Below, in pieces: positions 1 through 55,813 of a stretch of 64,000 nucleotides of DNA; positions within the stretch are counted from its first letter, which is position 1, and every line of letters begins with the position of its first letter. A program made the position numbers and the translations under genes. A model generated the notes under the pieces. It saw only the letters and a list, made by a program, of their open reading frames with translations. It was not told the DNA's origin and ran no database searches. The stretch comes from Halichondria panicea (Eukaryota; Porifera; Demospongiae; Suberitida; Halichondriidae): NCBI RefSeq assembly GCF_963675165.1, contig NC_087377.1, forward strand, positions 11,084,632 through 11,148,631. The letters run 5' to 3'.

Positions 1-388
1 ATATACCGGCCATTTGGCTTGGCACGGAATGCTAGCTATATGTTTACTGCACAAAACTCACCCTGAAGTACGGCCACTCGCTATTCCGTTTACCGGCCAG
101 TGCTGGCTGTCCCAAACAGGGTTTTCAATGTAATTTTATATGTGTATTACGGCCGGATATGACGTTTTGGGTGTGGTTTAGCAAATAAAATTGAATTACA
201 CTTAAATATATAGAGAACAAAATGATTCATTATCCTACATTATCCTCGAGACAAGAACCGCAAAAGTAGTCATTAGATTCGAGGTAAGGTCGTTTTTAAG
301 CCGCGGCTATTTCCTGAGCTGCAGCCACCTCGCTATTCCGGCCAAGCTGCATGGTCCCAAGGGTGACCAGATTAACGAGAGTCTACTG
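1..388 (+). mobile_element. TA-flanked MITE (family 1), cut by window edge
   Basis: This closely matches the complete element at 55814-56228, so the window begins about 45 bp inside it. The right end reads ...ACGAGAGTCTACTG and is followed by TA, the target duplication typical of Tc1/mariner/pogo elements. It encodes no protein. It lies in an intron or upstream of the first visible exon of gene A. Other relatives lie near 23325 (inverted) and, truncated, at about 17470 and 35040. Confidence 0.7.
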
Positions 389-562
389 TATAGTATGTCA
401 GCAGCTACAGGATCATCCATGCATGGTTGTGTCATTCAAAGCCACTGACACTATAAATTATACCGTGTGCATGCATGAATGCCATTTCATATGCCATTTC
501 ATACTTAAAGCTGGTCATTTCATACTTAAAGCTGGTTATTACTCAGTAATTCTACTATACAG

Positions 563-3500
563 GTGCCTATGATGTTCAGTCTATTCAGAGTTCTATTCGC
601 TCTGGGACTATAGCCGTCACATGCAGTTTCACAATTGGGTCAGTGGCAAGTAGTTGTATTGTAAGGATATGTGAGGTTATCAATGGAAACGTATCGATGA
701 TGTGCCAAGATCTCCCTGTTCCGAGAAATCTTTCCGCTTCTGAAACAACTCAAGAGCTCAATGGTGTACAGCCAGGTGTCTATGCGATTGTAGGTGTCAC
801 AGTGAATAGTGGTGGGGAAATGATTCCTTTCACTAGTGGAGATTTGAGGTTCCTTCAACTTCAGAGCATTGACTTCACAGGTGGTAAGTTAATTATACTT
901 GCATGCATATTAACTTTGTGGGAATGTATTAGTTGTGCTTGCATGCATGTGACTGTATGAGGGGGGAATTATCGTGAATGATTATGCTAAGTGAACACTC
1001 ATTCTATTTATTTTTTCAAGAACTGCTGAGCTCTCCAACACGTCTCAATATTTCCGACTCCGAGGAATCTATTCGAAGATTGAGCTGGACACCACCACCA
1101 ACACTATACCTGATCGGTATCATCAGCTACAATGTTTGCTCTTCAATCTTGAATGAGGTGTCTTGCAATGATGTCCAAGGAACAGAATTATCATTTTTAA
1201 ACATCAGAATTGGGATTGAGTTTTCTGTTGCCGCAGTTAATGTGGTTGGTGAAGGCAATGCTAGCACTATCAATCATGAGCCTTGTGACTCTACAACAGG
1301 TGAGTTCATTCATTTTCTACAGTCATGTATAGACTTTTGATTGACCTCTCAATGTAGCACCTACTCAAGTTGATGGAGATTTTGTTACAAGTGATATCTC
1401 TCTGCAATCTAGTGGGACTACTCCCTCTGTTACTTTCTCCTTTGGAAAAGTGAGTCATTATTATTTTACTAAAGATCTTGTCTATAATTATACAAAAACG
1501 TACTATATTTGTTGCCTTTTGACCTCTGAGATCAAAGGAATAGCAGTGCCTGTATATGCCATAAATTATTGCACTGTGGTCAGCCTGTATATGGCATACA
1601 GAAAATTGACCTTTCGGTGAAGTGCCCCACCCAATCATTGCTTTTATAGTGCACACTGAATGAGACACTTGTGGTTCCTGTGGGAAATTTACCAGACAGC
1701 ATATGCATGGTTTCGATCCAGTTACTATTTCAATATTGTGATTCCATGCAGTCACCAAAAACGACCAAATTATCATCCGTATCTACGCATTCTATGCAGG
1801 TTTCTATAAGCAAAAAATGGTTTTCAAATTAGTTATTACATGTATGGCAATTCGTGCCACAACTTGCTGTTTATTTGGCCCGGTAGTAGATTGTGGTCAA
1901 GGGCCTTTACATAGCCATGTAATAACTATTACGTACTCCTCACTCCTCAGAGACCGGTTATAAAAAAATTTGCAATAATTGTGCTAGGATTGGCCAGGGA
2001 AAACACCAAAAAGCGTCAAAACAAAAATTCGGCGAGAGCATAACTCCAATCAGTTACGGCGTCATTCACATGTACATTTTTCGCAAATGCTTTTATTAAT
2101 TTTTTTGCTGGTACAGTAGAACCTAGATTATCCGGACACCTTGGTTCCAGAAGCAGGCGGGATAAGTGAATATGCCGGATAATCGAATAGATAAACCACG
2201 CCTTGATCCACCCACTTTATTGATAATTAGCAGTGCCACATGGTTGTCTGGGCATGCGCAGAAGATAAGCAAGCATGTCTCCATGGAAACAGCTGTAACG
2301 CGCATGTGCATTTGAGGGACACGCCCATTTTTTAATCTGATTTAAAAAAATGCCAAGCCGGATAATCGAGGTTCTGGATAATGGAGGGCCGGATAATCGA
2401 GGTTCTACTGTAGTTTTTTATATGGCCAGTCCTACAGTAGAGTACAGATTAAAGTTTCTGTTTTGAAAGCTAAATAGATTGCACTCAAAAATCCGTTTCC
2501 GCCTACGCACGTACTACGCTGCGGCTTCATGGTTACATTGATTACAATCACAGCATGCATGCATGTATAGCAATTGCCTTGATTCCAAATGGTGGCCAAT
2601 CCTAGCAACCTTTCACATGGCGAATTTTTTTCATCACAGAAGTACAATAATGAAATTCGTAAGAAGAACTTCAAAAAGTAGTAGAAGAGAAGACAGGGCT
2701 GTAATAAACATGATGTAGATCAGTGGCGTAAGAAGGGCTGCTAGAGCCCCCCCCCCACATGTCTAGGCTATTATAATTATAGAGATGACTATCAAGCTGC
2801 AATATGTAGATAGCCGTACTTTTTTCCATTAAAAAAACTATAGAGCCCCCCATTGAGAAATTGCTTCCTATGCCACTGTTATTATTCAAGCTTTATACAT
2901 GTATACAGTCACTGTGTGAGGGGATGATATAAAAAGAAAGAAGGGCGTAGCTTGACGAGTTGTGAGCCACGCCCTTCTTTCTTATTATGTAGTGAGATAC
3001 ATTGTGTACAAGCTTGTTGGAAGTTATCGAACGAGTTTTTTTACTCGAAGCATTCTGGGTAGCAACTATAGATTTACTGCATGGGTTATGTCAAAGTTGT
3101 CATGTATGCATTTCACGAAGAACATACGTAATTCGAGCCAGTACGTACGATAAGTCTATATCTTTGTAGTTCATATCCCGTGGTTTTACGTTGGGTTTTT
3201 TCGAGGCGAGTTACGTCTTGTAGACAAGTATAGGTTTGGATGCCACACTTGAGAACAGTATATGTGAAGTGTTAACGTTAAGTAGAGAAGTCTTTTGGGA
3301 CACTCCAGGTGTAAGTGCTGAAATAGCACGTCTATAGAGAATAGTATACTATAATTATATATGCATGCTTTGGAACAGATTGCGTTGTAGGTGTTGATCC
3401 ATGAAAGTTTACTTGTATAGTTGTCAAAACAAAAACAAATGTGGAACGCTTCACGAATTTGCATGTCATCCTTGCGCACATGCATGCAGTGTATAAGAAT

Positions 3501-6294
3501 TATAGTTATGATAACACAGTCATGCACGTTAACGTATAGAAGTACTTTGAAGTGCTGTTTTGCAATAGCATGGCTCTATATATACATGTACGCTTATATT
3601 CGAGAATGCGCCTATAATGCAGTCATTTTCGAGCCCCATCGGATGTCTCTGTGATGAGAGCTGACTCGTAAGCTAGCTAGAAAACAAGCAAGCAAGGCAA
3701 GCAGGCAACCCTAAACTGGATCTATATCATACTATTATGTTACAGTTCATTTTACAGTTTATTTTACAACATACAAAAACGTTTTTAAGAAAATATCAAG
3801 GCGGATAATCGAGGTTCCTGATATAAGTGGTTTTTCACCCATGCACCTATTATGCTACTATACTATAATTATTATTTCTCAAACTGATTTTTAGGAGTCT
3901 AAAATTGAGTGTGAGTCACAGAATAAATTAGGATCTCAGGAACAACGAACACAACTGACTTTCGTATATTAGTAACCATTCTATTGCAGGTTGTATAGTC
4001 GCTTGGAAACCCTGTGCAAAATTAAACATCCTATAGAGATGGCTGTACGTGGAGATAGTGCTTGTCAAAAAATTACTCATTTACTTATATAGTCATGCAG
4101 CCAGACAGAGTGCGGTGAAATGTGGAAATAGTGCAATATTTATTTTTAAAATGACAAGTACAAACATGACTAAAGGCTAAATAATTAAACTATCTGAGCC
4201 AAGTGTCTTGATATGTGCATGGCTTTTTCTTACAGAGATGAGTCAAATATTGCGAAACACATGCAAACGTGCAAATGCAAACACATGCAAATTCCTATGT
4301 AAACTATTCTGCCTATTGAATGTGTACTTGTTATAAGTCTTACTTATATGCAGGGAGGTGGAGAGTCCAATTGTTTTAACCTGTATCGGATTGAAGCATC
4401 ACCGTCCAATCAAGGCACTCCCCTAATCCAGAAACCAAGGATCCCAACAGTGAGTGGAGGGGAGGACATTTCTGTCAGTGTGACTTCTGGCCTTGTGAGA
4501 AACACAGTCTACAGCGTCAACATTGTATCAGTGAACGTCAATGGAGAGAATTCTTCAGTGAAAGACATACAATTCAGTAAGTCAAGTCAGAGTCAGTATA
4601 AAATTAGTAAAGTGCTGAGTCAGCAACCCATCACAGCTTTTCTGGTTGGGTGGGGCTCATTGCTGACTCAGCACTTTACTTTTGTCAGGCACAAACAACT
4701 CTATATAGCTCAGCTTTGCAAGGTTTACTGGCACCGCATCATGTACTGTACTCTATCTAGATTGAGCCCATAGCAGTATGTGTATAGTTAACTCTAGCTA
4801 TGTAGTTTTGGAAATAGATTACACTCGCCGAAAATCGAATTATTGGTTTTTTTCTAGTGATCATAGCTCCGACTGGAAGCGACTCAAATTTTCGCTGACT
4901 TATTGGTGTGTGCAGTTAGTCTTCACTAAAATTAATAGTCAACATGTGGCATTTAGTTACTGCTCATGCTCAAACTCTTCATTCTGGGTGGGCGTATAAT
5001 CGAGTCAAAATACCCTTGTGCGAAAGAACTTCAAAGCAAAAGAGGGGATGGGCATTTATTCAAGATGGGTTTATTTTCGCAAGGGTACGGTATACGCACT
5101 TTTAGCTGACGATTATTGACGTCTGACGAAATTCGGTAGTCTATATACTCTAGTACTAAACACTGAGTCTTGTTTTTTGCACAGCTATTTAATACTGCAC
5201 AGTGAAAATCTTGTGCATCATGTTGACCTTTGACCCAATTATACGCATGCCAATATATAGTGGGCGCTTCTACGACAGGCAAAAGTAGGGGATGGGTGAT
5301 TATTCGATATGGGGCGGTTCGACGGTTTACTACGGTACTACTGCATTATTGTATATCACACTCCTCTCGGTTCTATCTTTATTATCATGTCATCAGCCAA
5401 CAGTTGATATATAGTTAGACACCATTGGTGTATATAGATAACTGTGTTCTTAAAGTAACAGCAGCTAGGTTATAATATCTTTGAAAGTCAGTCTATATAC
5501 CGTGTGCATGAATGCATTTAATATTTTAGCCGGTTACTCAGTGATTCTACTACAGGTGCCTATGATGTTCAGTCTATTCAAGGTAATTCTCCTCGCCCTG
5601 GGGCAATAGCCATCACATGTAGTTTCACAATTGGATCAGTAGCAAGTAGTTGTATTGTGAGGATATGTGAGGTCGTCAATGGAAACGTATCAATGATGTG
5701 TCAAGATCTGTCTGTTCCGAGAAATCCTTCCTCTTCTGAAGCAACTCAAGAGCTTAATAATCTACAGCCAGGTGTCTATGCGATTGTAGGTGTCACAGTG
5801 AATAGTAGTGTGGAATTGATTCCTTTCACTAGTGGAGATTTAATGTTCCTTCAGCTTCAGAACATTAACGTTACAGAAGAATCACCAACCACCCCCACAA
5901 TGGCTACTGAAGTCACATCAGGTAGTTGCATGTTAACTTTATGAGAGTGTATTGTGTAACTATATCCAAAGAGGGGGGCATCGTGAATGTGATATAATTG
6001 TTTACATAAACCTGTCACTGTGCAGATTCCATTGGGGACTCTTCAGCCAATGCGGGTATAGCAGGTGAGCAGTTGGTGCTACAATTATAATTCCATTAGC
6101 ATGCAAGTATAATTAAATCTTGTTACACAGCTGGAGTTGTTGGAGGAATCATAGGTTTTGTTTGTATTGGCTGCATATCCACAATGGCTGTTGGAGCTAT
6201 CCTCAAAATGATATCTTCTAAAAGAAGAGTGAAAAAACCAGTTGACGAAAATATAAATCCTCAACTTCATCCCAATGAAGTGCACTTCAGTTAA
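563..6294 (+). CDS. Gene A: FN3-repeat type I membrane protein with short tail (5' end outside window)
   Basis: Exons read from frame and GT-AG sites: 563-883, 1021-1299, 1358-1449, 4354-4576, 5556-5921, 6026-6064, 6131-6294 (stop TAA). All junctions are phase 1 except the phase-0 split inside the second FN3 domain. About 493 residues are visible. Order: an FN3-like module with paired cysteines (SSCIVRICEV), a second FN3 module (LSWTPPP), a third split over two exons (CFNLYRIEA), another copy of the first module, a short stalk, then a transmembrane helix (GVVGGIIGFVCIGCISTMAV). The cytoplasmic tail is about 30 residues, basic (KRRVKKP), has no tyrosine and ends in HFS. The signal peptide must lie upstream. 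It is a clear paralogue of gene B but lacks B's long signalling tail. It may be an adhesion protein or a short-tailed partner receptor. FN3 assignment rests on fold-like patterns, not a profile search. Confidence 0.78.
2114..2410 (+). mobile_element. Pogo/Tigger-like MITE with TA target duplication
   Basis: A 297-bp element with inverted ends CAGTAGAACCTAGATTATCC and its near complement ...ATAATCGAGGTTCTACTG, flanked by TA on both sides. No transposase is present. A fragment of the same end (GGATAATCGAGGTTCC) sits near 3803. Confidence 0.85.
2721..2878 (+). mobile_element. CAGTGGCG-type MITE
   Basis: Inverted ends CAGTGGCGTAAGAAG and CTTCCTATGCCACTG enclose 158 bp with C/G runs. A partial relative is at about 23211-23247, and a longer relative with ends CAGGGGCGTAGG is at 44553-44943. 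Confidence 0.6.
2934..2983. repeat. Short hairpin
   Basis: Perfect 15-bp arms AAGAAAGAAGGGCGT and ACGCCCTTCTTTCTT are separated by 20 bp. It lies within the intron of gene A. Confidence 0.7.
3580..3720 (+). repeat. Dispersed repeat, inverted copy near 19.4-19.56 kb
   Basis: About 140 bp, including GCGCCTATAATGCAGTCATT and the AAGCAAGCAAGGCAAGCAGG run, recur in opposite orientation at about 19410-19560. No coding content is seen. Confidence 0.6.
4606..4680. repeat. 75-bp hairpin just after an exon of gene A
   Basis: Arms AGTAAAGTGCTGAGTCAGCA and TGCTGACTCAGCACTTTACT are perfect inverted repeats 30 bp downstream of the donor site ending at 4576. It is probably a very small foldback transposon. 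A hairpin this near the donor could affect splicing. Confidence 0.75.
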
Positions 6295-8530: not shown

Positions 8531-11500
8531 ATGATGAAAATAAGACTTATTCTTCTCCTATGGACTGTGCTTTCCTTCTCTGGAAATAGTGCACTAGCAC
8601 AGACAGCTCCTACTGCTGTCCTCAACCCAGCAGAAGGTGTCAATGCAAGTCTAGGATCCACTGTTACCTTCACTTGCATCATTGATGGCACAGATGATGT
8701 TCTGTGGATAGTAGACGGAAACTCAGATCCCACAGTACAACGTGAGATGGGGATAACTCAAAACAGAACAGTCGGACAACCTGACGAAACTTTTATCTCT
8801 CGCATTCATGTTTCATCCACGATGGAGAATAATGGTATTGAGATTGTATGCCGTGCAATAGGGACCTTATCGAATGGACAAAGTGAAACAGTCACTCTAT
8901 TTGTCCAAGGACTGCTGAGCTCTCCAACAGCGCTTGGTATTTCCGACTCAGAGGGACCTACTCGGAGATTGAGCTGGACACCACCACCAACACTAGACCT
9001 CACCGATGTCCATCCAGACATTAGCCACTACAATGTATGCTCTTCAATCTTGAATGAGGTGTCTTGCAGAAATGTCGAAGGAACAGAGTTATCATTTTTA
9101 AACATCAGAATGGGGATTGAGTTTTCTGTTTTCGCAGTTAATGTGGTTGGTGAAGGCAATGCTAGCACTATCAATCATGAGCCTTGTGACTCTACAACAG
9201 GTGAGTTCATGTGTATATGTGTGAAAAGTACATTCACTTCTATATGGACTTTGATGAATGTTCGTTGACCTCTCAATGTAGCACCTACTCAAGTTGATGG
9301 AGATCTTGTTACAAGTGATATCTCTCTGCAATCTAGTGGGACTACTCCCTCTGTTACTTTCTCTTTTGGAAAAGTGAGTCATTACTAATACATGCCAAAA
9401 TGTAGAGGTTCCAATCCTCAAAGACAAGATACAAAATTGTATTTTTCTCATGTGCAGGGAGGTGGAGATGCCAATTGTTTTAACCTGTATCGGATTGAAG
9501 CATCGCCGTCCAATCAAGGCACTCCCCTAATCCAGGGACCAATGTTCCCAACAGTGAGTGGAGGGGAGGACAATTCTGTTAGTGTGACTTCTGGCCTTGT
9601 GAGAAACACGGTCTACAGCGTCAGCATTGTATCAGTGAACGTCAATGGAGAGAACCCCTCAAAGGGAGACATACAATTCAGTGAGTATAAGATGATATCG
9701 CTACAGTATTACAGCAGTACGTATATTGATGCAGTATTGATCAGTAACTGTATAGAGATATTCTATTACGCTGGAGTATTGTACAGCCTGTGGGTCTATA
9801 GTGGAATGTTGTTTGGAATTCTATTCCTTTTATGTTTATATGCGGAATGTGTGTGTTAATAGAAACCATGGTGCATGGCTGTGTTTATTTAATGCTCAAT
9901 TGGGTGAGGTGCTAGCAAATGTCATGCATGGGGCATGGCTTATATACAATGAGTATACAGATTCTTTGACTTTGTGTAGTCTTAAAGTAACACCAGGAGA
10001 ATTGTTGTGGTTGGCTACACGACACACTTTTGACTCACAATACATAATAGGGTATTTTCATTAGCTGAGATAATAATTATGAAAGTGCTAACAAAACTTA
10101 ATAGCGTTAAATTGCCACACCATCCATGCGAAAATACCATTCCTCGCCTTCACTAGGTACCTATGATGTCCAGTCTATTCAGAGTTCTACTCGCCCTGGG
10201 GCAATAGCCGTCACATGCAGTTTCACAATTGGCTCAGTAGCAAGTAGTTGTATTGTGAGGATATGTGAAGTTGTCAACGGAAACATATCGACGATGTGCC
10301 AAGATCTCCCTGTTCCGAGAAATCCTTCCGCTTCTGAAACAACTCGAGAGCTTAATAATCTACAGCCAGGTGTCTATGCGATTGTAGGTGTCACAGTGAA
10401 TAGTGGTGGAGAAATGATTCCTTTCACTAGTGGAGACATGACATTCCTTCAACTTCAGAACATGGAAGTTATCGTAGGACCACCAACCACCCCCACAATG
10501 GTCATTGATTTCACAGTTGGTAAGTCATATTCAAAGTGCCTGTGTACATGTGTGTAAATGTACCGATTTGATGTGTATGAAATTTGCGTGTCAATGTGCT
10601 GGTTGTTATGTAGGTATAGTGAATGATTTGATGTACATGTATATTACATTTGCTTGACCTATAAAATTATGTATTATAAATATGTATTTGCAGGTCCCAC
10701 TGGCCAAGTAAATCCCGAATCCAATACTGGTGTCATTGCAGGTGAGCAGTCGTTGATTATCTGTTGATAGTACAGAAAACCCTCGCTAATCCGAATAGAG
10801 CGGGATCTGAAACCATGAAATTTCCGGATTAACAGATGTCATTAGATGACATTAACAAAGACACTTGTGTACATGTATTATGCTATAATTGCCCGAAAGG
10901 GAAGCTGCTATAATTAGAATAGTCTCAACTTTCTCTCCATAAAGTGAGTCTTGTGAGCTCTTTGTTTTCCTTGCAGTGGCCATTGTACTGAGCGAGGTAT
11001 TTAGGACGCGTTATAATAAAATTATTGCTGATTCAGCAAAGCAAGTTTGAGTGCGCATGCGCAATAGTATATTCTACTGACAGACCCTCTTCTTTCATTT
11101 TCGCCATTTTGTCCAGATTAGCGAGAGTTTCACTGTGTATCTATCATTTCTGGGGGATTTAATAATTGTCTTTTGATGATCTAACACTGATTGATTGCTT
11201 TCAGGCAGTGTGATCGGAGCTATTGCAGTGATCATAATTGTGCTCATCGTGATTGTGGTTGTGTTAATTGTCCTTCAACGTCAATCGGACTCGGGCAACA
11301 AAACAGAGGGTGAGTACTATCCCATATCTGTTCCTATTAGCCTCAGTCATCGAGCACCATTACCTTTATCTACTTTTTTAGGTTGATTCAATTAATACCA
11401 CATGCAAACAAACAGAAACCTTATCAATTTCATTCCTTTCCATGTGAAGAACTCACTAAACGATATTAATTTAATCTCCAACACTAGCTAGTATAGTGAT

Positions 11501-14500
11501 TATGATTAAACCTTCTCCAGTGTCCAATAATGCATAACACTTTATACATGCATGCATGTTGATCATACCTGTTTTGTTAGTTGTGCATAGCAGTCGTAGA
11601 TCGAGTTACGAATAGCTTCCAGTAAGAAATTTAAATACACATAATTCACTCACACACCCTCTTGCCCACCCATGCTCTCCACAGCTGTCAGTCTCACGAC
11701 AACAGAGATGTGGTTGGAGGACAGTACGGACAGTGGTACTGGTACTCGGAGACTAACTCAGTCGGGAAAAGATTCACTCCCACTTGAAATGTCTGCCATA
11801 GAGTGCGTTGCATGCTCACCACAATCAATGGAGCATTTAATAACTGTCCATACTAGTACATTGTTAGGCGTGTTGTGAACTCATTCGATAATAAATTCAG
11901 AGGGTGTTGTAGATCGGTGGCCATTTTGTAAGTGCCTGTGCATGGTTCGTTGCATGGACATTTAATGTCTCAATGTCGTTTTAGAAGCTAGGACACGATT
12001 CCCATTATGATGTTGGTAACACGGTTGGTATGTCTGAAATGCTGTTGCACCCACACAGTATATTGTTGACATACATGTAGGTGTATGTATAGGTCACACT
12101 AACAGCTCTGGTGTACTGGGTACTCATGTTTGGCGTGAGAGTATGTAGAAAATTAAACTGTTTCATTGCAAACTTTGATGATAGAATGGATGAGCAATGT
12201 GTACTTCTCATGCATGACAGCAGTTCACAGATACGTCTTTAATTGAATGAAATAACATCAACGATATCGATTTCCTGCAGGAATACTACCTCAAGTCCGT
12301 TGTCAGAAATGGCTGTCATACAAGGCAAAAATGGTTGCCATGTGGAGATTGATCTCTCTGATAGCAACATACTTGAAGAACTACAGTTGGACTCGGTGGA
12401 ACTAACAGAGGTAAATACTGTGTGTAAATTGTTGGCATAATTATGTTTGTGTAGTATAATTATTATAGGTAAGAAGAATACCAACAGTCTATAGAGTCAG
12501 TGTGTGTATATTATCCTGCGAAAGTAATTACAAGGCTGCTCATGAATGATGAGCAATGTGTTGATAGTAGCTACTTAGTGGGCATTTGGTAAATCCCTGA
12601 ATTCACTATTAAGCCCTGTGAATGTAGGATAGCTTAGTTACCGTGGCATCTATTTGTTGACAAATTTGTAAACAAACTGAATCATATCGTGCCCAAACAT
12701 CCCTCTCATTCGTAACATGACTCTCCACTGTGGTGATGTTTGCTGCCCTTAATTGTTGACGTGGGGTGAATTTCATGACAACAGTCTGATTGAGATAGAT
12801 TGGATTAAGTGGTCTGCACAAAATGCCACAATGTTTGGAATGTATGGCTATTTTAAGTTTGCATATTAGTGATCTTTACCCATTTTTCAAAGCTGTCAAA
12901 TAAACTATTGTCCTCATGAGCCTTGCCACCAAAGAACTCCTGGAGGGTGAATATATTATGACTAATTACACGCTATCTACATGTACATAACATTGTACAT
13001 TAATATTGATTTAGGTCATTTCTTACTGTAATGTGTGTAGATATTACAGTAATGTACGTACATGTACACGCATGTTATGTATGTGTATAACACACGTATC
13101 CTACTTCGCCTCCCTCATAGGACTACCCTCCTCCGGCCTACGAGGTTCTGAGTGCGTCACAGCCGGACGTCCTCCTGCGTGGAGCACCAGTGGTTGGCTT
13201 GGTAACTGACAGTGGGACTCGTGGCAGACTCTCGGCTGATGACATACATGAAGTCAAGCTAACGGTATTAAAACTTATTTCGATGTGTGCATAGATACAA
13301 GAAAGAGAGGGATTGGCAATAGATCACGTGTGCACATAAGCTGCACATAAAATCACAAACACCATATTGAATACAGAGCTTGTTTCATCCGTGTTTCTCC
13401 TGCCAAACAATTAGGGAAAACAACTTCTATTAAATGGCTGTTATACAGCAAATACAGACTGTTTTCAAGCCCCCCAAAACTTCTATTCGATGGCCCTTGC
13501 TAGTAGGCATCGTTAATTTTAGAGATGACAAAAAATAGTTTCGATAGTTGTGATTACATAGCATGTATAGCAACTATATTATACATAATGCACTTCTTAC
13601 ACTGACAGTCGTTTCTTTTTTGTCTTTGGCCATTTTTCCCGATGTTAAAGTATAGGCGGCCTCGATGAAAAACACGGATGGCTATTCGAGGCGCTTTTGT
13701 TGCCAAAATCCCTCTCTTCCTGTACCTATCTATGATCATTGTGTAACTTGGGTGTGTGTGTCTAATATGCATTAATTAAATGCAGTGCATGTATGTAAGC
13801 TTGTTTCTTTACTATCAGACGCGACACATCGATCCCTTTTTTTTACTAATATACAAGTACAGTAGATAGAAATTTATGCCCGTTTTATGCCATCTTTCTT
13901 TGTGCAGTCATCTCTGGACGATCTATCCAAGGGCCCCCGGCACATGAGGACTCCTAGCAACGATTTTATCTACTCACAATCCATCGAATCTATCAACTCA
14001 CAAGGACAGGTGAGCATACGCTGTTAGTATGTTCTGTGCATGTTCGTTTTACTATATCGCAGTTTAACAGTGGATAAAATTATTAACAAGAGAAATCGTT
14101 TCTGTATTGCGAAATTTTTAATTAGCCTTGCGTTACCGTATTACAACGCAAGGTCCTGGCTCTAGGATAAATTAACCATTGCTTTTTTTCACTACAGTAT
14201 GCAGAGATCGATCATCGCGTTGGCAAGAAACCCAAGAAGACGCCTAAAGACAACGATCTTGTTCTGTACAGTGAGATCAAGGTGGATGAGGTGAGCTAGC
14301 TCATACATATATTATATTTACGTGTACAAGTGCACTATCTACGCATGCTTGAAATGGTAGTCCAAGTATGCGTGGTTACACAATTAACTGTCCAAGGAGT
14401 CTGTGCATGTCGGTGCTGTATACCGCGAAATTTTCGAAGCACTTAACTTTCTTGGAATTACCTCTATTTCGTGAGCTATACAGTATGTCATGATCAATGT

Positions 14501-15629
14501 GCGTTGTGTCCGCCGTTAGCTATGTTTTTCTCGGAGGGAAATAATAGTACAGGTTCTCGATCTGTTTTCAATGTGTCAAAGTAACTACAATAATTATTAC
14601 CCGTTTTTCCAGAGCTACACAATGTACTTTTATCTCGATCATAGAATCAATCCATATAGAAGATGTTGAATTGATAGTCTACTTCCTTTCCGCTGCATGG
14701 CAGTTGACGATAAACTATTCCCAATAATATTAACTAGCTTGACCTTCTCTCCCTGTAGCTCCGACCTGTTGTGCCTCAGAAGAGAAGACACAAGCCAGTC
14801 CAGTCCACTGGTGAGTAATTGAAGTTAACACTGCAATTCCTCGTCGTAACTTACAGCTATACCATATTCCTGTGTACACTATAATTATAGTCATGGCATT
14901 GTCTATCTTATGATTGGGGCAGGCGCAGTGAGTCGATCTCTACCTAGTGCTCATAAACCGCCGGACTTCTTTTGTCAACGCACAATATTTGTCCCAACTA
15001 CGTCAGTCATTGCGCATGAGCCAGACGGGACTCCTGCATGAGGCCGTAGATCTACATGTACATGCACGTATATGGCACACCTGCAGAATGCCATATAGCT
15101 ATAGTCATTAGAGTGTTGTTTTTCGTCAACAGTTGTTCACTGCTTGTACGTCGGTACAGCCAGCAAGAGCCGTAATTATTGTCTTCTGATAACCCTGCTC
15201 CTCTGTGCACCCATGCAGTTCTTTGGCATAATTATACCGTATAGCGGGAAATTTTCGTGGGACAAAATATTCGTGGTTCAGCAATATTAAGACATTTCGG
15301 AGGTAAATTTTGTGGTAGCTGCTTGCACTGCAGGTAAAGGTAGGCAAGGTCGCTTCATTCGTGGGTAAAATATTCGTGGTCAGACCTCCAACCACGAAAA
15401 CCACGAATATTTTGCCCCACGAAAATTACCCGCTCTACGGTAGTTAGATCTAGATCTACTGCTGTGCATTATTTTTGACCACAATCATAGTTAAAATGCT
15501 GACATTTTTCTGTTTCACTCTATAATTATACTCTATATAATTATTATAGAATACTTGCAGCTTCACTACACGCTGGTGTTAAACATGAGAATTTCACTCT
15601 GTCTCTGTACGCTTCAGACAGATTATTAG

Positions 15630-15685
<56 letters not shown>

Positions 15686-15791
15686 GTGTGTGCGTGCGTG
15701 CGTGCGTGTGTGGTGGCTCCAATTTAATAAATGTATATTCCCTACAGATTCTCTACCAGATGAGCTACATATGGAAAGCTTTCATGTCTAA
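8531..15791 (+). CDS. Gene B: Ig-FN3x3 receptor with ITIM-type cytoplasmic tail
   Basis: Thirteen coding exons give 727 aa: 8531-9200, 9282-9373, 9458-9680, 10157-10519, 10694-10741, 11205-11309, 11685-11802, 12281-12410, 13121-13264, 13908-14009, 14198-14290, 14759-14810, 15748-15791 (stop TAA). The frame is continuous across every junction. The start is the first in-frame ATG before a signal peptide (MMKIRLILLLWTVLSFSG). Domains: one Ig domain (FTC..VLWIVDG..IVCRA), FN3 (LSWTPPP), FN3 split by an intron, FN3-like with paired cysteines, a stalk, then a transmembrane helix at about residues 467-490. The tail of about 235 aa carries PPPAY (586-590, WW-ligand type), YAEI (about 666), VLYSEI (687-692, fits the ITIM consensus) and a C-terminal SFHV (class II PDZ type). 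Ectodomain introns are phase 1. The exon ending at 11802 uses a weak donor, GTGCGT, and is the least certain part. Likely role: a cell-surface receptor able to recruit SH2-domain phosphatases or kinases (inference). Confidence 0.82.
13290..13734 (+). mobile_element. CATAGAT-ended inverted-repeat element in intron of gene B
   Basis: The left end CATAGATACAAGAAAGAGAG and right end ...CTTCCTGTACCTATCTATG are imperfect inverted repeats with inner GGGATTGGCAA / TTGCCAAAATCCC. It belongs with the elements at 36279-37046 and 56409-57590. No ORF of note. Confidence 0.6.
14198..14290 (+). other. Exon of gene B carrying YAEI and ITIM-like VLYSEI
   Basis: This 31-codon, phase 0-0 exon holds both candidate phosphotyrosine sites, separated by a lysine-rich stretch (GKKPKKTPKD). 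The ITIM consensus is (I/V/L/S)xYxx(I/V/L), which VLYSEI satisfies. YAEI has glycine at -2 and so fits a general SH2 ligand only. Because the exon is symmetric, skipping it would remove both sites and keep the frame. Confidence 0.7.
15235..15442 (+). mobile_element. MITE family 2 (TACCGTATAGCGGG ends)
   Basis: Ends TACCGTATAGCGGGAA and CCCGCTCTACGGTA are inverted repeats, with inner paired blocks such as CCACGAAAACCACGAATATT. Matching copies are at 26282-26480, 32286-32500 and 33941-34127. It lies in the last intron of gene B. Confidence 0.8.
15630..15713 (+). repeat. (TG)n microsatellite upstream of last exon of gene B
   Basis: A TG run, then TG/CG mix, ends about 35 bp before the acceptor at 15747. 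The two duplicates of this exon have the same repeat at very different lengths (34314-34483 and 55295-55312). Confidence 0.9.
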
Positions 15792-23755: not shown

Positions 23756-25623
23756 ATATATATTGGATAGTGCATGTGCATGTTCGTGTGTGTGACAGTG
23801 CATGCATGTGTATATACTATTGTAATTGCGTGCTTTATATACAGCTGCAATGCAGGTATCACGAGCCGGCTAATAAATTATTATACTAGCATAATTACAT
23901 TAATTTAATAGTATGTCATTTCACAAAGTGTCAATTCAGGTCTGTGCCCATTACTGAGATCTCCGAACAATGGTGTTGTCAGAGTGAACGATGGCAGAGC
24001 TACCTACACTTGCAACAATGGGTATACACTTTTTGGCTCATATTCTCGTTTTTGCTTGTCCAGTGGTAGCTGGTCTGGATCTAATCCCTCCTGCCAATTA
24101 AGTAAGCTGCTGCATGCATGCTTGTATGAATTATCTTATGAACATTAATTTTAGTTTCAGGAGCTACATGCCCTGTACTGAATAACCCAAGCAATGGTCA
24201 AGTGTCTGTTAGCTCACATGCTATTGGAGGGACAGCTATTTACAGCTGCAACACTGGATATGGACTGACTGGTTCATCTTCTCGTACTTGCTTATCCAGT
24301 TGTAACTGGTCTGGATCTAACCCCTCCTGTCAATTAAGTAAGCTATATTATAGTTTTTGTGTGAATTATCATTTTATTTTAGTTTCAAGACTGACATGCC
24401 CTGTACTGATTATCCCAAGCAATGGTCAAGTGTCCGTTAGCTCCTATTTTATTGGAGGCATAGCTACTTATAGCTGCAAAACTGGGTATAGACTCTCCGG
24501 TTCCTCTTCTCGTACTTGCTTGCGCGGTTGCTACTGGTCTGGATCTGATCCCTCCTGCCAATTAAGTAAGCTATATATAGTGCTTGTGGGAATTATCATC
24601 TATAGAAAATATATATAGTTGCAGAAAATTGCCCTGTACTGAATAACCCAAGCAATGGTCGAGTGTCCGTTAGCTCTTATGTTATTGGAGGGAGAGCTAT
24701 TTACAGCTGCAATATTGGGATAGACTATCTGGATCATCTTCTCGCACTTGCTCGTTCAGTGGCAGCTGGTCTGGATCCAATCCCTCCTGTCAAAGTAAGC
24801 TATATAATAGTGCTTTTGTGTGAATTATCATCCCTTATACTTTCGTACGAACATTGATTTGTAGGAAAGTGTCCCACACTGAATAACCCAAGAAATGGTC
24901 AAGTTTCCATTAGCTCTTATTATGGAGGAGGCAGAGCTACTTATTGCTGCAACACTGGGTATGAACTGTTTGGCTCATCTTATCGTACTTGCTCTTCTAG
25001 TGGCAGTTGGTCTGGATACAATTCCTCTTGTCGAAGTAAGCCGTATGCATGGTGTTTTGTGTGTGAAGTATCATCGCACCATTGTATATGATTTACGTAC
25101 CTATAATTATATTTACCATGCAAATTTCCACATACAGCTGTAGGAGACGGGCCACAAAGATATCCGAGGCTACAGGAGGAGGACCACATATATGGGAGGG
25201 GATGCAACATCCCATACTGAAAGACAATATAATCTCTATGACTATATACATTATTTAACTTGTATTTATGGTTGCTGCTATAATATAGATCTAGTAAAAG
25301 AGTGTTCTAGTTAACTTGTTTGATTTCTGTGCTGACAAACATGTATAGTCACTATAAATTTTGTTCTCTGCGTTCAATCTTATTCTCTCAGGGTGCACTA
25401 TACACAAGCGATCGCGAGTCAGTGATCAATTACAAATTAAGTTACTACAACAAGAAGGTGATAAGCCCATACTTATGTGTATGGTTGGTCATATACTCTG
25501 TATATTGGGTTGCTGCAGAGTTATTAAATTAATACTCTAGATCTAAAATAATGCTAACACAAAAGAAGGCTTGGCTTGGCACCATTGATTATCAATATAT
25601 GTTTACAATGACTAAAAGTATAT

Positions 25624-27165: not shown

Positions 27166-28329
27166 TTAAGTCAGATTCTCGTAAGGTCTATATGGATGTA
27201 CAGAGAGATCACGTTTGCATGTTTGTTGACCCAACAGAAACTTTGAGGTAATATTTAGTGTTAACCATTGCTGTAAAATAGGCTCAACTGAATTTCGATA
27301 CTTTTCTGGTTCTTCGGATCGAATGTCAGCGACAAAAAGATTGAAGGCATCCTGACCAGGATACTTTCGTACGTAACCGCGATGCTTATCGTTAGGTGTT
27401 CTAAAACGAGGGTCAGTAACTACTTGTCCATTAAACCGGATATTCAACCTGACGTTTGTATACTCTTGTGAGTACCACCAGCTCACTGAATCGTACTTTG
27501 ATACGTATGGAAGTATGTAGTCTATCGCTTGATAGTGATAGGCAATAAAGAGGCCATCTATTCTATATATTTGTAAGTATCCTGTGACTTCACAATTCGA
27601 TCGCTCGGAAATAATTTTTTTAGGGAATTTACATCGCCCGGAATAATCAAGGATGATAACTACAGCGGGTTGAAAGGTCTTGAGAGATTTCTCGTACATC
27701 CTAAATGGATTCTGTCTACTCTTTTTATCTACTGGTATTAGTTGAACATCGTCGTCCATGAAAATGTAGTGGATGTACTTTTCTTTCCTTTCTTTGGCTG
27801 TTTCGTAAAGTAAGTTTCTTCCGGTAGTCCAGGTTTTACTAGAATTGAATATGTATTGGACATGAGGCAATGACGTGTCAGCGCACTTCGTCTTGTAACT
27901 GAGGATGATGACATCACACTGACATGCTTCAGAGTCACCAATCACTTCAGGAGACTTTAGATAAGTTGGAATACAGCTTTCTGTTTGTGTTAGATAGATA
28001 AAGCGAGTTGGTGCAACCACCGTGGAGAGGTTTGTTTCAATAGCATTGACCTGTTCAGTCGGTACCTTCCTTGAGTGCTCAATATCATTAGTTGTGACCA
28101 TCGTAGAGGGTTTTGTTTCAATAGCATCGACCTGCTCAGTCGGCACCTCCTTTGAGTGTTCAGTAATATTAGCTGTGACCACCGTGGAGAGTTTTGTCAA
28201 AGGCATATTATACGGCCTTGCCAATGCCGAGGTCGAGGTGAAGCGTATGCTTGGAAAATACGATAGCATTGCGATACTGCCAAGCAAAACAAACAATACC
28301 ACCACCTTAAAAGTGCGTTGATTCACCAT
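27166..28329 (-). CDS. GT1: single-exon type II membrane glycosyltransferase-like protein, 387 aa
   Basis: An intronless ORF starting ATG GTG AAT, shared with both intact paralogues. A short cytoplasmic N terminus is followed by a signal anchor at about residues 8-25 (VVVLFVLLGSIAMLSYF), then a stem with two near-identical 27-residue repeats (HSKEVPTEQV type, about residues 47-100), then a globular domain. A metal-binding type DDD motif (IFMDDDV, 192-194), WTTGRNLLYE just before it, an SVSWWYSQEY stretch and conserved cysteines fit a Golgi glycosyltransferase. The family is not identified with certainty and the substrate is unknown. The C-terminal HPYRPYENLT is invariant among copies. Its 3' flank is homologous to that of the 37.6 kb gene. 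Confidence 0.75.
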   Translation of the reverse strand: MVNQRTFKVVVLFVLLGSIAMLSYFPSIRFTSTSALARPYNMPLTKLSTVVTANITEHSKEVPTEQVDAIETKPSTMVTTNDIEHSRKVPTEQVNAIETNLSTVVAPTRFIYLTQTESCIPTYLKSPEVIGDSEACQCDVIILSYKTKCADTSLPHVQYIFNSSKTWTTGRNLLYETAKERKEKYIHYIFMDDDVQLIPVDKKSRQNPFRMYEKSLKTFQPAVVIILDYSGRCKFPKKIISERSNCEVTGYLQIYRIDGLFIAYHYQAIDYILPYVSKYDSVSWWYSQEYTNVRLNIRFNGQVVTDPRFRTPNDKHRGYVRKYPGQDAFNLFVADIRSEEPEKYRNSVEPILQQWLTLNITSKFLLGQQTCKRDLSVHPYRPYENLT

Positions 28330-28545
28330 TCTTCACTTTTTCTGCTTATCAATATGCAATAGAGCTAGCTAGCTCATATAGAACACTTGTCCTTCCACAC
28401 CACACCAGGATCAGAACAAGATCGGTCGATCGACAGAGCTAGAGGACTCCGAAAGGGATTGATCTGGCGCCTAGACTCGAACTCGCTGGCCAACTCCCAA
28501 AATCACTACTCCAAATACTGATGATGGGAGTGGCCAGCGAGTCTA

Positions 28546-33920: not shown

Positions 33921-33940
33921 GCAGTTCTTTGGCATAATTA

Positions 33941-34127
33941 TACCGTATAGCGGGTAATTTTCGTGGGACAAAATATTCGTGGTTCAGCAATATTGAGACA
34001 TTTCGGAGGTAACATTTTGTGGTAGCTGCTTGCACTGCAGGATTCGTGGGTAAAATATTCGTGGTCAGACCTCCAACCACGAAAACCACGAATATTTTGC
34101 CCCACGAAAATTACCTGCTCTACGGTA
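33941..34127 (+). mobile_element. MITE family 2, carried in the duplicated segment
   Basis: Near-identical to 15235-15442 except for a short internal deletion (TAAAGGTAGGCAAGGTCGCT is missing). It moved with the segment rather than inserting independently. Confidence 0.8.
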
Positions 34128-34313
34128 GTTAGATCTAGATCTACTGCTGTGCATTATTGACCACAATCATAGTTAAAATGCTGACATTTTTCTGTTTCAC
34201 TCTATAATTATACTCTATATAATTATTATAGAATACTTGCAGCTTCACTACACGCTGGTGTTAAACATGAGAATTTCACTCTGTCTCTGTACACTTCAGA
34301 CAGATTATTAGTT

Positions 34314-34397
34314 TTGTGTGTACATGGTGTGTGTGTGTGTGTGTGTGTGTGCGTGCGTGCGTGCGTGTGTGTGCGTGTGTGCGTGTGTGTGTGTGTG

Positions 34398-34435
<38 letters not shown>

Positions 34436-34483
34436 CACGCGCGGGTGTGTGTGTGTGCAGGTGTGCGTGCGTGCGTGTGTGTG
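34314..34483 (+). repeat. (TG)n/(CG)n microsatellite
   Basis: The repeat is about twice the length of the one at 15630-15713, with interspersed CGTG and GCGCGCGCAC. ORFs of alternating Cys/Val or His/Thr here are artefacts. Confidence 0.95.
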
Positions 34484-34518
34484 GTGGCTCCAATGTAATA
34501 AATGTATACTCCCTACAG

Positions 34519-34562
34519 ATTCTCTACCAGATGAGCTACATATGGAAAGTTTTCATGTCTAA
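34519..34562 (+). pseudogene. Orphan copy of the last exon of gene B
   Basis: It keeps the acceptor (CCCTACAG) and encodes [14 protein letters not shown] and stop with no amino-acid change. No upstream receptor exon is nearby, so it should not be translated unless a distant exon splices to it. Confidence 0.8.
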
Positions 34563-35440
34563 AGTGGCTTATCTGATGTTTTACATGTAAGAACTGTATA
34601 ACGAGAGTACGTTTCATCCAGTATAATTATTGGATACCTTTTCAATTCAGCCACACATAATTTTTGTACATTACCAATAATTATATCAGCATGCATTTCT
34701 GACTGTGAACGATGTGGTCGTGTTTGTGTCACACAAACAATTATTTTGACGGTTATATAAGTATATTATGTGTCACTCCGTCCTTCAAAAACAATAGTGA
34801 GGTTATAGTGCTACAAGCATGAAACTACCATAGGAAGTAGTAGTTGTAATGACTAAATAAAAGAACTTCCTCACGTATATCGATTGAAGCGAGTATAGAG
34901 GTATAAACACTGCACCAGAGAAAACCGCCATTGGGGTAAGCAAGTGCCTCATAATTTCAGTATCAGTAGCAGGCTAGAAGCATTTTGTAGAAGTGCAATG
35001 ACCATAATACATGAGCATGACTCATAATGCTGGCATAATTATAGAGGTGCCATGGCTGCATTTCAGAAATAAAATAGCGGTCCTGCCTCGAATGTAGTAA
35101 CTGATTTTGTGGTTCTGCTCAAGGATAATGAATCATCTGCCAAACCACACCCAAAACGTCATATGCATGCTGCAGAGAGGCTGCTATTTTGGAAAAATTA
35201 AATCCGCGAAAACCTTTCGAACGGGTATTCCGCGAATGTTTATACCCTCGAAGTATACCCGCTATGCGTCTGATTGGCTAAAGGTGTGTTTTATCCAACT
35301 TTAGTTAGAAAATCATGGAGTCCAAGATCGACAATCATGTACTTCACTTAGACAATCATGCACGTAGCAAAGATTGATAAGAACATTCAATGGCTAGCTA
35401 ATAGACTCATGGGTGCATGCTATGATCTATATTGCTTCAA

Positions 35441-37219: not shown

Positions 37220-38720
37220 TATAGCTCCTTTTAAAAGAGCTGTGTCTCATAATAGTACTCTCTTTTACTCTACTTCTGGGTAGCTATAGGACTAATGTCC
37301 CTCCCATGTTTTGTCCGCCCTGAAATTTGGCTGGGGGAAGTTATACGTTGACACTTATCTCTATTATGTTAATTGATGTACTTCATATAAAGCAAACGAC
37401 TATACATGCAAGCCAAATTAACCCGAAGACTTATACTTATATAAACACAGAAGACCCAAAAATAACTCTATAGTATGACCTCCACTCCAACAAAGTTGCA
37501 TATAATTCTCATGTTTATAATAATATAAAGTACACGAAATAGTGCATGCGAAAGAATGTGACGCAAAAATAAAATGCACAGTATATAATTATGATATAAT
37601 TATGTGGTATATAAAGTTTATATTTTAAGTCAGATTCTCGTAAGGTCTATATGGATGTACAGAGAGATCACGTTTGCATGTTTGTTGGCCCAACAGAAAC
37701 TTCGAGTTAATATTCAGTGTTAACCATTGTTGTAAAATAGGCTCAACTGAATTTCGATACTTTTCTGGTTCTTCTGATCGAATGTCAGCGACAAATTGAT
37801 TGAAGGCATCCTGACCAGGATACTTTTGTACGTAACTGCGATGCTTTGGGTTAGGTGTTATAAAACGAGGGTCAGTAACTACTTGTCCATTAAGTCGGAT
37901 ATTCAACACGACGTTTGTATACTCTTGTGAGTACCACCAGCTCACTGAATCATACCTCGGTTCGTACGGAAGTATGAAGTCTATCACTTGATAGTGATAG
38001 GCAATAAAGAGGCCATCTATTCTATATATTTGTAAGTATCCTGTGACTTCACAATTTGATCGCTCGGAAATAATTTTTTTAGGGAATTTACATCGCCCGG
38101 AATCGTCAAGGATGATAACTACAGCGGGTTGAAAGGTTTTGAGAGATTTCTCGTACATCCTAAATGGATTCTGTGTACTCCTTTTATCTACTGGTATTAG
38201 TCGAACATCGTCATCCATGAAAATGTAGTGGATGTACTTTTCTTTCCTTTCTTTAGCTGTTTTGTAAAGCAAGTTTCTTCCGGTAGTCCAGGTTTTACTA
38301 GAGTTGAATATGTATTGGACATGAGGCAATGACGTGTCAGCGCACTTCGTCTTGTAACTGAGGATAATGACATCACACTGACATGCTTCAGAGTCACCAA
38401 TCACTTTGGGAGACTTTAGATAAGTTGGAATACAGTTTTCTGTTTGTGTTAGATAGATGAAGCGAGTTGGTGCAACCACAGTGGAGAGTTTTGTTTGAAT
38501 AGCTTTGACCTGTTCAGTCGGTACCTTCTTTGAGTGTTCAATATCGTTAGTTGGGACCACAGAGGTGAGTTTTTTTTCAATAGCATTGACCTGTTCAGTC
38601 GTGGCCTGCTCATTCATGTCCGCCTTGGAGTGTAAGTATTGGAAATACCATATATACACTGTGATTACAAGCAAAACAAATAATACTACTAACTTATTAA
38701 AATTGATTGGATTCACCATT
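37220..38720 (-). repeat. Duplicated GT unit, paralogous to about 26640-28330
   Basis: The downstream flank (TCTCATAATAGTACTCTC, CCCATGTTTTGTCCGCCC, CACAGAAGACCCAAAAATAA) and the coding region are shared, showing duplication of a unit of about 1.6 kb in the same orientation. Confidence 0.85.
37625..38719 (-). CDS. GT2: single-exon glycosyltransferase-like protein, 364 aa
   Basis: Closest to GT1 across the catalytic part. A signal anchor at about residues 9-25 (VVLFVLLVITVYIWYF) is followed by a shorter stem with one full 27-residue repeat plus a partial one, then DVIILSYKTKC, WTTGRNLLYK, IFMDDDV, SVSWWYSQEY and the conserved C-terminal LSVHPYRPYENLT. The ORF is intact from ATG to TAA and has no introns. 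Shared intact motifs suggest it is active. Substrate and pathway are unknown. Confidence 0.75.
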   Translation of the reverse strand: MVNPINFNKLVVLFVLLVITVYIWYFQYLHSKADMNEQATTEQVNAIEKKLTSVVPTNDIEHSKKVPTEQVKAIQTKLSTVVAPTRFIYLTQTENCIPTYLKSPKVIGDSEACQCDVIILSYKTKCADTSLPHVQYIFNSSKTWTTGRNLLYKTAKERKEKYIHYIFMDDDVRLIPVDKRSTQNPFRMYEKSLKTFQPAVVIILDDSGRCKFPKKIISERSNCEVTGYLQIYRIDGLFIAYHYQVIDFILPYEPRYDSVSWWYSQEYTNVVLNIRLNGQVVTDPRFITPNPKHRSYVQKYPGQDAFNQFVADIRSEEPEKYRNSVEPILQQWLTLNINSKFLLGQQTCKRDLSVHPYRPYENLT

Positions 38721-39613
38721 CTTAACTTAGACTTAAAACTAACTTAGTTTCCAGTTTTCGATAACCGTAATACTAGAAAACTAACTGACAACAGCATAGC
38801 TAGCTAGATTCCACGAAAGAAAGGGATAGGCAACGCCCCAGAGGAGGTAGACTCGCAAGCCACTCCCTTTTCTCTGATTGGACAGGGGCGGGAGAAAAGG
38901 GACTGGTGACTCTGGGCTACAGCTTGTGTAAATCAGGAATGCTATTAAATATTAATGTCACGTGCAAATTATCCAATTTATTCTGATGCGTCAAAAGCTA
39001 AAGACACACAGAAGACAAGTATACAGATCTATCTAGCCAGCCTTTTGATTTTATAGATCCTTGTACCAGTGTCTGTTGTGCCACAACTTGTGGATTAGCA
39101 TGGAACAGCTGATGAACGTAGAAATCTTGGCAGTCCTTCTTTGAACCGAGGAGTGGCAGCGATTTAAGACAGCTTGTACAAGTCTGACTACTCTCAATTC
39201 AACTGCTGCCGTCTGCCATTATCTGTCTTGTATTGTACAGGTTATTAAAAGCTTTAGGCAACCAATGACTTTCGGCTGCCAGTTCTCATCACGTAAAACT
39301 AAAACAAGCTAATCTCTGCTGGTGTCTTAGATGACTATATCCTAGCTGAATGCCTGATGATGTTATTACTCCATCATCTTCTCTTTTCTAGCACTAGCAT
39401 CCATTCTTAAACTGTAGCTAAGAAGCCCGCGATCACTTTTGCGGCTACGCAATTCTACTTAACCTCACGCAATTTTTGGATCACGTGGAAAAATCAATGA
39501 ATAATCTCTACCCAAATTCTGGTAGAGACACAAAATGTGTCCCAGAGTCATTTTCTCCCGCCCCCGTCCAATCAGAGAAAAGGGAGTGGCTTGCGAGTCT
39601 ACAGAGGAGGGAG

Positions 39614-41996: not shown

Positions 41997-43064
41997 TTAA
42001 GTCAGATTCTCGTACGGTCTATATGGATGTACAGACAAATCACGTTTGCATGTTTGTTGGCCCAACATCCATTTTGGGTTAAGATTTGTTAACCATTGCT
42101 GTAAAATAGGCTCAAATGATTTTCGATACTTTTCTGGTTCTTCTGACCGAACATCAGCGACAAAAGAATCGAAGGCATCCTGATAAGGCGGTCTCTTTTG
42201 GTAGTCACGATGCTTTGGGTTAGGTGCTCTAAAACGAGGGTCAGTAACTACCTGTCCATTAAACCGGATATTCATTCTGACGTTCGTATACTCTTGTGAG
42301 TACCACCAGCTCACTGAATCGTACTTCGGTATGTATGGAAGTATGTAGTCTATCGCTTGATAGTGATAGGCAATAAAGAGGCCGTCTATTCTATATATTT
42401 GTATGTATACCGTGAGTTCACAATCCAATCGCTCGGGAAAAATTTGTTTAGGGAAATAGTTTCGATTGGAATTATCAAGGATGACAACTACAGCGGGTTG
42501 ATAGATCTTGAGAGATTCCTCATACTTCCTAAATGGACTCATTGTACTTATATCCACTGGTGATAGTTTAACATCATCGTCCATGAAAATGTAATAGATG
42601 TACTTTTCTTTTCTTTCTTTGGCTGCTTCATAAAGCAAGTTTCTTCCAGTAGTCCAGGTTATAGACTTACTAGAGTTGAATATGTATTGGACATGAGGCA
42701 ATGACGTGTCAGTGCACTTCGTTTTGTAACTGAGGATGATGACATCACACTGACACGCTTTAGAGTCACCAATCACTTTAGGAGACTTTAGATAGGTTGG
42801 AATACAGTTTTCTGTTTGTGTTAGATAGATAAAGCGAGTTGGTGCAACCACCGTGGAGAGGTTTGTTTCAATAGCTTTGACCTGTTGAGTCGTTACCTCC
42901 TTTGAGTGTTCAGCTTGCTCGGTCATGACTTCCAATTCCGTGAAGCGTAATTGAAATCCGCGTACGTTTGGAAAATACCATACCACTGTGCATGTGACGC
43001 TGACAACAAGCAAAACAAATAGTAGTATCATGGTCACCTTTGTAGATTTGAGCTGATTCACCAT
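41997..43064 (-). CDS. GT3: single-exon glycosyltransferase-like protein, 355 aa
   Basis: Intact ORF ATG-TAA. The signal anchor is at about residues 12-30 (TMILLFVLLVVSVTCTVVWY), followed by the shortest stem (one partial 27-residue repeat, AEHSKEVTTQQVKAIET), then the same domain with SSKSITWTTGRNLLYEAAKE, IFMDDDV and VSWWYSQEY. It has SI before TWTTGR where GT1 and GT2 do not, like GT4, so GT3 and GT4 form one subgroup and GT1 and GT2 another. An AATAAA-like signal directly overlaps the stop (TAAAAATAAAATC). Activity as a glycosyltransferase is inferred from topology and the DDD motif only. Confidence 0.75.
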   Translation of the reverse strand: MVNQLKSTKVTMILLFVLLVVSVTCTVVWYFPNVRGFQLRFTELEVMTEQAEHSKEVTTQQVKAIETNLSTVVAPTRFIYLTQTENCIPTYLKSPKVIGDSKACQCDVIILSYKTKCTDTSLPHVQYIFNSSKSITWTTGRNLLYEAAKERKEKYIYYIFMDDDVKLSPVDISTMSPFRKYEESLKIYQPAVVVILDNSNRNYFPKQIFPERLDCELTVYIQIYRIDGLFIAYHYQAIDYILPYIPKYDSVSWWYSQEYTNVRMNIRFNGQVVTDPRFRAPNPKHRDYQKRPPYQDAFDSFVADVRSEEPEKYRKSFEPILQQWLTNLNPKWMLGQQTCKRDLSVHPYRPYENLT

Positions 43065-43228
43065 TCTTAGCCTAGTTTCCAGGTTTTCTTTTCGCTGTGA
43101 CTATTCTTACGGGTACGGCACTGTATAAAGGCTACTTACACTTATGGCAAGGTGAACTTTCACTTTCACCTCTGACCGTAATAATAATTTATGCGCATGC
43201 GCTATAATAGATGAGTTAATAATCAATA

Positions 43229-48010: not shown

Positions 48011-48050
<40 letters not shown>

Positions 48051-54320: not shown

Positions 54321-54339
54321 CTGTTGTCATAACTAATGT

Positions 54340-54345
54340 AATAAA
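54340..54345 (+). promoter_or_regulatory. Candidate poly(A) signal of gene C
   Basis: AATAAA lies 20 bp after the stop codon. The duplicated FN3 fragment begins 8 bp later. Confidence 0.55.
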
Positions 54346-54353
54346 TAATGCAG

Positions 54354-55384: not shown

Positions 55385-55813
55385 AGTGGCTTATCTGATG
55401 TTTTACATGTAAGAACTGTATAGCGAGAGTACGTTTCATCCAGTATAATTATTGGATACCTTTTCAATTCAGCCACACATAATTTTTGTACATTACCAAT
55501 AATTATATCAGCATGCATTTCTGACTGTGATCGTGTCTATATATCACACAAACAATTTGCCAAGTAAAAAGGTCACTCTGTCCTTCAAAAACAAACAAAA
55601 AGGTGTAGACTGAGGCAAGTGTTACAAGTATAGAAAGTAGTAATTAGTGGCTATATAAAAGAACTTTCTCACTTATACGTATCAATTGAAGCGATTAAGT
55701 GTGTATAAACACTGGGCCAGAGAAGACCGCCAATTAAAAGTAGGGGCGATCAATTAAGTGTCATAATTACATTATCAGTAGCAGGCTAGAAGCATAATAC
55801 TGGCATAATAATA

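Follow-up and report, generated by a model that had tools for sequence, protein, structure and literature searches.

Does a sponge carry receptors of the kind that signal through an immunoreceptor tyrosine-based inhibitory motif (ITIM)? The question is raised by a gene in a 64,000-nucleotide (nt) stretch of the Halichondria panicea genome (here called the window; contig NC_087377.1, or C1, positions 11,084,632-11,148,631). The gene lies on the forward strand at window positions 8531-15791, and an earlier note on this DNA had proposed that it encodes a 727-amino-acid (aa) receptor with an immunoglobulin (Ig) domain, three fibronectin type III (FN3) domains, a transmembrane (TM) helix, and an ITIM-type tail. 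We examined this proposal in the 131.5-Mb assembly (39 contigs). On our best reading, the window gene appears to be a member of a receptor family that has both inhibitory-type tails and tails resembling an immunoreceptor tyrosine-based activation motif (ITAM). We give about even chances to the more specific claim that it encodes a type I receptor of a multigene recognition/adhesion family whose two-tyrosine tail would act through an SHP-2-type phosphatase.

The proposed layout was borne out by the gene model. Thirteen exons separated by GT-AG introns, with consistent phases across all 12 introns, give an open 727-aa frame that reads as signal peptide, Ig, three FN3, TM, and a tail containing PPPAY, QYAEI, and VLYSEI; this is the layout of a type I membrane protein with an Ig ectodomain and a cytoplasmic tail, as in an ITIM-bearing receptor. 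Exon 1 (8531..9200) encodes the signal peptide, the Ig domain, and FN3 no. 1; exons 2 (9282..9373) and 3 (9458..9680) encode the first and second parts of FN3 no. 2; and exons 4 (10157..10519), 5 (10694..10741), and 6 (11205..11309) encode FN3 no. 3, a stalk, and the TM helix, whose best 20-residue hydropathy is 3.81. The cytoplasmic tail is divided among exons 7 (11685..11802), 8 (12281..12410), 9 (13121..13264, with the PPxY motif in DYPPPAYEVL), 10 (13908..14009), 11 (14198..14290, the two-tyrosine module, with YAEI at Y666 and the ITIM VLYSEI at Y689), 12 (14759..14810, LRPVVPQKRRHKPVQST), and 13 (15748..15791, the C terminus and stop). Profile searches, which the earlier note had named as a check, upheld the domain assignments in part: exons 2 and 3 jointly matched Pfam fn3 (E = 6.2e-5), the Ig match fell just under the Pfam cutoff, and exon 4 had no Pfam fn3 match. 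The signal peptide was called by inspection. The structure predicted for exon 4 has an FN3-like fold, and FN3 domains ranked first in a second look; a Foldseek search with this model returned no match at E <= 0.001. AlphaFold prediction of exon 1 (four sequences) gave a predicted local distance difference test (pLDDT) score of 28.9 and no usable model.

In exon 11, VLYSEI fits the ITIM consensus that we used, [SIVL]xYxx[IVL], and its tyrosine lies 23 residues from Y666. When the 237-aa window tail was shuffled, an ITIM accompanied by a second Yxx[IVL] 18 to 30 residues away appeared in 425 of 20,000 shuffles. Similar modules occur elsewhere in the genome; since our module searches scored the best candidates only, the counts of places are lower bounds. 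A blended query built from places near C1:7 Mb found at least 26, of which 24 were at C1:6.97-7.70 Mb and 2 were on C8, and a C8-derived query raised the C8 number to at least 4. On C1 the places group into 12 loci; 11 of these have two module exons each and 1 has a single module, for a total of 23 module copies, one of them split over two matches. Both tyrosines lie in one open frame in 19 of the 23, so that within this genome the motif is kept in relatives. The tyrosine-pair pattern permitted spacings of 14 to 30; in the 21 copies that passed it (19 on C1 and 2 on C8), the spacing was 22 in 17, 21 in 3, and 19 in 1. Four positions (Y, V, Y, and P) were invariant over 13 aligned sequences (12 of the 21 copies plus the window gene), and the ratio of nonsynonymous to synonymous divergence (dN/dS) of intact modules was 0.43 for 10 A modules and 0.39 for 9 B modules. 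Near a module exon in L063 (C1:7,228,000-7,237,999) there are also long open reading frames (ORFs) on the minus strand (136-5869), presumably retroelement polyprotein-like.

Three loci of the 7-Mb family, L064, L066, and L067, resemble the window gene as whole receptors. In each, an Ig domain is accompanied by FN3-like exons and by an exon corresponding to exon 4; the tail includes one PPxY exon and two module exons, and a TM stretch of strong hydrophobicity separates it from the ectodomain. A signal-peptide exon was located in L064 and L066. In a one-protein comparison, the window gene matched these relatives in exon 4 (E = 4e-5) and in the modules (E = 1e-4 and 0.002). Over the three pairs of loci, dN was highest in the Ig segment (0.124, versus 0.042-0.093 in seven other segments), and dN/dS ranged from 0.31 to 0.87 by segment.

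Tails of a different kind were found closer to the window gene. A search with the tail at 10.92 Mb identified six places including itself, of which one is on C5 and five belong to the cluster that includes the window gene. The pair YDE[IM]...YAEI is present in four, L069 (11.065 Mb), L076 (10.767 Mb), L077 (C5), and L071 (11.183 Mb), and the ITAM pattern Yxx[LI]-x6-12-Yxx[LI] is matched by two of the six, L069 and L076. The others depart from it through a spacing of 13 (L077), YDEM (L071), YEEM with no partner (L033), or a tyrosine-free tail (the window gene's neighbor). Shuffled L069 and L076 tails reach the pattern in 1.8% and 3.4% of cases, figures that are not independent because the tails are related. 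L069 (11.064-11.066 Mb), ~28 kb upstream of the window gene, appears to join related Ig/FN3 exons to a putative ITAM-like tail: an Ig/FN3 match starts at 11,063,701, and a two-locus comparison placed a related FN3 (E = 1e-9) and an exon-4 counterpart (E = 3e-4) upstream. The earlier note says nothing of the tyrosine-free neighbor, of relatives with ITAM-like tails, or of a tandem family.

Candidate partners for both kinds of tail are encoded in the genome. A gene on C3 has two SH2 domains and protein-tyrosine-phosphatase (PTP) exons with HCSAGIGRTG, in the order SH2-SH2-PTP; the best match of its SH2 part in PDB was PTPN11 (E = 2.4e-83, versus 8e-72 for PTPN6), and judged by its sequence it is an SHP-2 orthologue. 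A gene on C9 has an SH2 domain, ankyrin repeats, and a second SH2 domain, and it is probably Shark-type; among the SH2 proteins listed, ZAP-70 and SYK are nearest to its first SH2. Separately, a large array of PTP-domain exons lies at C4:0.04-2.6 Mb, and a PF00102 search gave at least 174 genome matches (150 of 361 candidates scored).

If the window receptor acts through such a phosphatase, its ectodomain would bind a ligand on a neighboring cell and a Src-type kinase would phosphorylate Y666 and Y689, which could occupy the two SH2 domains of the SHP-2-type phosphatase together because tyrosines of this module lie 22-23 residues apart. The phosphatase, opened at the membrane, would then counter kinase signaling, including that of ITAM-tailed relatives via a Shark/Syk-type kinase. 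PPxY motifs bind NEDD4-type ligases and PDZ-type ends bind scaffolds; PPPAY may tune the surface level of the receptor through such a ubiquitin ligase, and its SFHV end may tether it to a PDZ scaffold.

Several results weigh against this interpretation. A single ITIM match is present in 6150 of the 20,000 tail shuffles (31%), and we therefore rejected the ITIM alone as evidence of an ITIM receptor; the motif needs support from relatives, and its credibility depends on kinship. Kinship with the 7-Mb family rests in turn on the common layout and on likeness in exon 4 and the module, since the Ig domain and the remaining tail (exons 7-10) align to those relatives no better than chance. When 139 aa of the window gene's tail were searched against the whole genome at E <= 0.001, the matches were that gene's own exons alone, with no 7-Mb place, and at a looser limit the best C1:7-Mb places reached E values of 0.02-0.04, a weak sequence link. 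Among the 23 C1 module copies, one (L054) has lost the first tyrosine and three (L057/L060, L058, and L059) are broken. The dN/dS of 0.87 is that of module B of L064, L066, and L067, where changes are few. The first tyrosine stands in contexts (GQYAEI, HQYxLV, and GQYIPV) without the usual residue at -2. Finally, positive action is common for SHP-2, so that its recruitment need not mean inhibition, and the effect could have either sign.

The alternative that survives best is a signaling adhesion receptor that has no part in inhibition and whose phosphotyrosines are positive docking sites, for SHP-2 as an activator or for other SH2 proteins, Src-type ones included. We regard this as a real possibility, although a less probable one than action through an SHP-2-type phosphatase: YAEI resembles Src-family SH2 ligands, the 71 matches listed in an SH2 profile search of the genome mean that other phosphotyrosine readers exist, and the predicted FN3 no. 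3 is closest to the FN3 domains of adhesion molecules, but the conserved two-tyrosine spacing favors a tandem-SH2 partner. It is improbable that the motifs are chiefly trafficking signals, with YxxPhi (clathrin adaptors) and PPxY (ubiquitin ligases) setting the surface level and phosphorylation being secondary. PPPAY does overlap YEVL, and PPxY occurs again in the tails of L064, L066, and L067; nonetheless, paired spacing and a V[IL]YSE[IV] context are more than a plain YxxPhi signal would have. A mis-assembled gene model, in which the tail exons are part of a different transcript or the ITIM is one of the chance matches common in shuffled tails, is very unlikely, for although the exon model comes solely from genomic sequence and the last two exons recur near another Ig/FN3 receptor (54860-54911, 1 of 52 nt different; 55341-55384, 0 of 44 nt different), the intron phases are consistent and the order Ig-FN3-TM-PPxY-module is the same in three relatives.

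Our best reading remains a family of receptors, some with inhibitory-type tails and others with ITAM-like ones. Tentatively, and with more doubt, C1:10.76-11.18 Mb might be an early-animal paired-receptor locus, in which one kind of Ig/FN3 ectodomain is set on an SHP-2-binding ITIM-type tail in the window gene, on ITAM-like Shark/Syk-binding tails in its neighbors, or on a tyrosine-free stub; together with the other, larger cluster of ITIM type at C1:7 Mb, it could form a self/non-self system with a vertebrate-style balance of activation and inhibition. Ectodomain copies are present at C1:10,915,195, 10,955,101, and 11,070,135 and onward to the window gene. The three other exon-1 copies share 81-94% aa identity with exon 1 of the window gene, and over six pairs the dN/dS of the Ig domain is 0.54-1.31, from small counts. 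In the receptor copy L033 (C1:10,915,195-10,922,499), a 4-nt insertion lies in exon 4 and the tail contains LYEEM; the 10 kb read at 10.955 Mb yielded exons 1-3 and no others.

The upstream neighbor begins outside the window, with exon 1 at C1:11,070,135, and consists of four FN3 triplets, a stalk, a TM stretch, and a short tail. Its 3' FN3 exons lie on the forward strand at 563-883, 1021-1299, 1358-1449, 4354-4576, and 5556-5921; the stalk exon follows at 6026-6064 (+), and the TM stretch and short tyrosine-free tail begin at 6131 (+) and end with a stop at 6292-6294. Each exon has at least one in-phase splice-site pair, not always unique or top scored; two FN3-exon ends had tied candidate sites, picked by likeness to the window gene's exons, and the last FN3 donor is weak. 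Paired activating receptors have a short-tail form with a charged TM residue for an adaptor; by reading, no charged residue lies inside the neighbor's hydrophobic stretch. We considered the array as a source of alternative ectodomains for the window gene's tail and set this aside. Such splicing is conceivable, but a separate gene is simpler, given that the array ends in a stalk, TM, and stop of its own.

The window holds other features. A second receptor-like gene at 46443-55384 (+), its exons seen singly and not as a spliced chain, has an Ig exon (ORF 47967, +; Ig_3, E = 6.7e-7), an FN3 exon (ORF 50478, +; E = 4.5e-8), and the copies of the window gene's last two exons; its TM stretch, near 51.4 kb, resembles that of L071, and ORF 53677 contains no Yxx[IVL]. 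Partial duplicates of the 3' end of the window gene, with 84-91% DNA identity, lie at 33921-34964 and 55297-55746 and retain the last exon (at 34519-34562, 1 of 44 nt differs). The minus strand has three single-exon ORFs that resemble one another (27166-28332, 37625-38743, and 41997-43100); they encode 367-388 aa, with a hydrophobic stretch at the N terminus, and the one that was profile searched had no Pfam match at E <= 0.1. Sushi-type exons are located at 24142-24618 (+), a piece of which matches Pfam Sushi (E = 1.1e-10), and, putatively, at 63289-63684 (+). Elsewhere in the genome, a look for silicatein as a sponge marker covered four of at least 30 cathepsin-type matches listed, and each of the four has the usual cysteine at the active site.

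How does this family compare with known systems? Vertebrate paired ITIM receptors, of the PECAM-1, SIRP, KIR, and Siglec types, have an ITIM and a second YxxPhi ~22-25 residues apart. The sponge genes share with them the tyrosine spacing, an encoded SHP-2-type partner, and related ectodomains with different tails; they differ in that the ITAM-like motif is in the relatives' own receptor tails, and the likeness is drawn from layout. If the paired-receptor reading is true, vertebrate-style activation/inhibition logic in a sponge would date to the base of animals. The finding of both kinds of tail together with SHP-2 and a Shark/Syk-like gene in a further animal genome makes an ancestral balance of activation and inhibition testable, and the C1 clusters supply candidate recognition genes. 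Among sponges, Geodia has Ig-domain adhesion molecules, for which the available descriptions, our sole basis of comparison, mention no tyrosine-motif tail or tandem family. None of the matches listed in the open-access literature (subscription papers and preprints lie outside it), as far as their available parts go, was a sponge Ig/FN3 receptor family with ITIM tails.

The earlier note's interpretation is upheld in part: the encoded receptor, the tyrosine modules of its relatives, and the SHP-2 orthologue agree with it, and inhibitory signaling is a prediction. Its emphasis on vertebrates was too narrow, since candidate allorecognition genes of Hydractinia (Alr) and Botryllus (FcoR) carry ITIM/ITAM motifs, according to excerpts of a 2025 review (PMC12065747). 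Like the sponge genes, Alr genes are clustered, multigene members of the Ig superfamily, with such motifs on candidate genes (PMC12065747, excerpts); the family has 41 members, as stated in part of another paper (PMC11999971). The window gene differs from them in having one Ig with FN3 domains, and the two are likened by description only. FcoR genes, as excerpted from the same review, lie at one locus beside partner genes and encode type I receptors whose tails carry ITIM, hemITAM, or core Yxx[ILV] motifs (PMC12065747). The FcoR ectodomain, a V-type Ig, sushi, and two C2-type Ig domains, is not that of the window gene, which has Ig and three FN3 domains and a tail with a two-tyrosine module plus PPxY. 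The excerpted review holds that the unrelated Alr and FcoR receptors converge on the same pathways (PMC12065747); the receptor family described here would be another ITIM/ITAM case beside them, with a different ectodomain.
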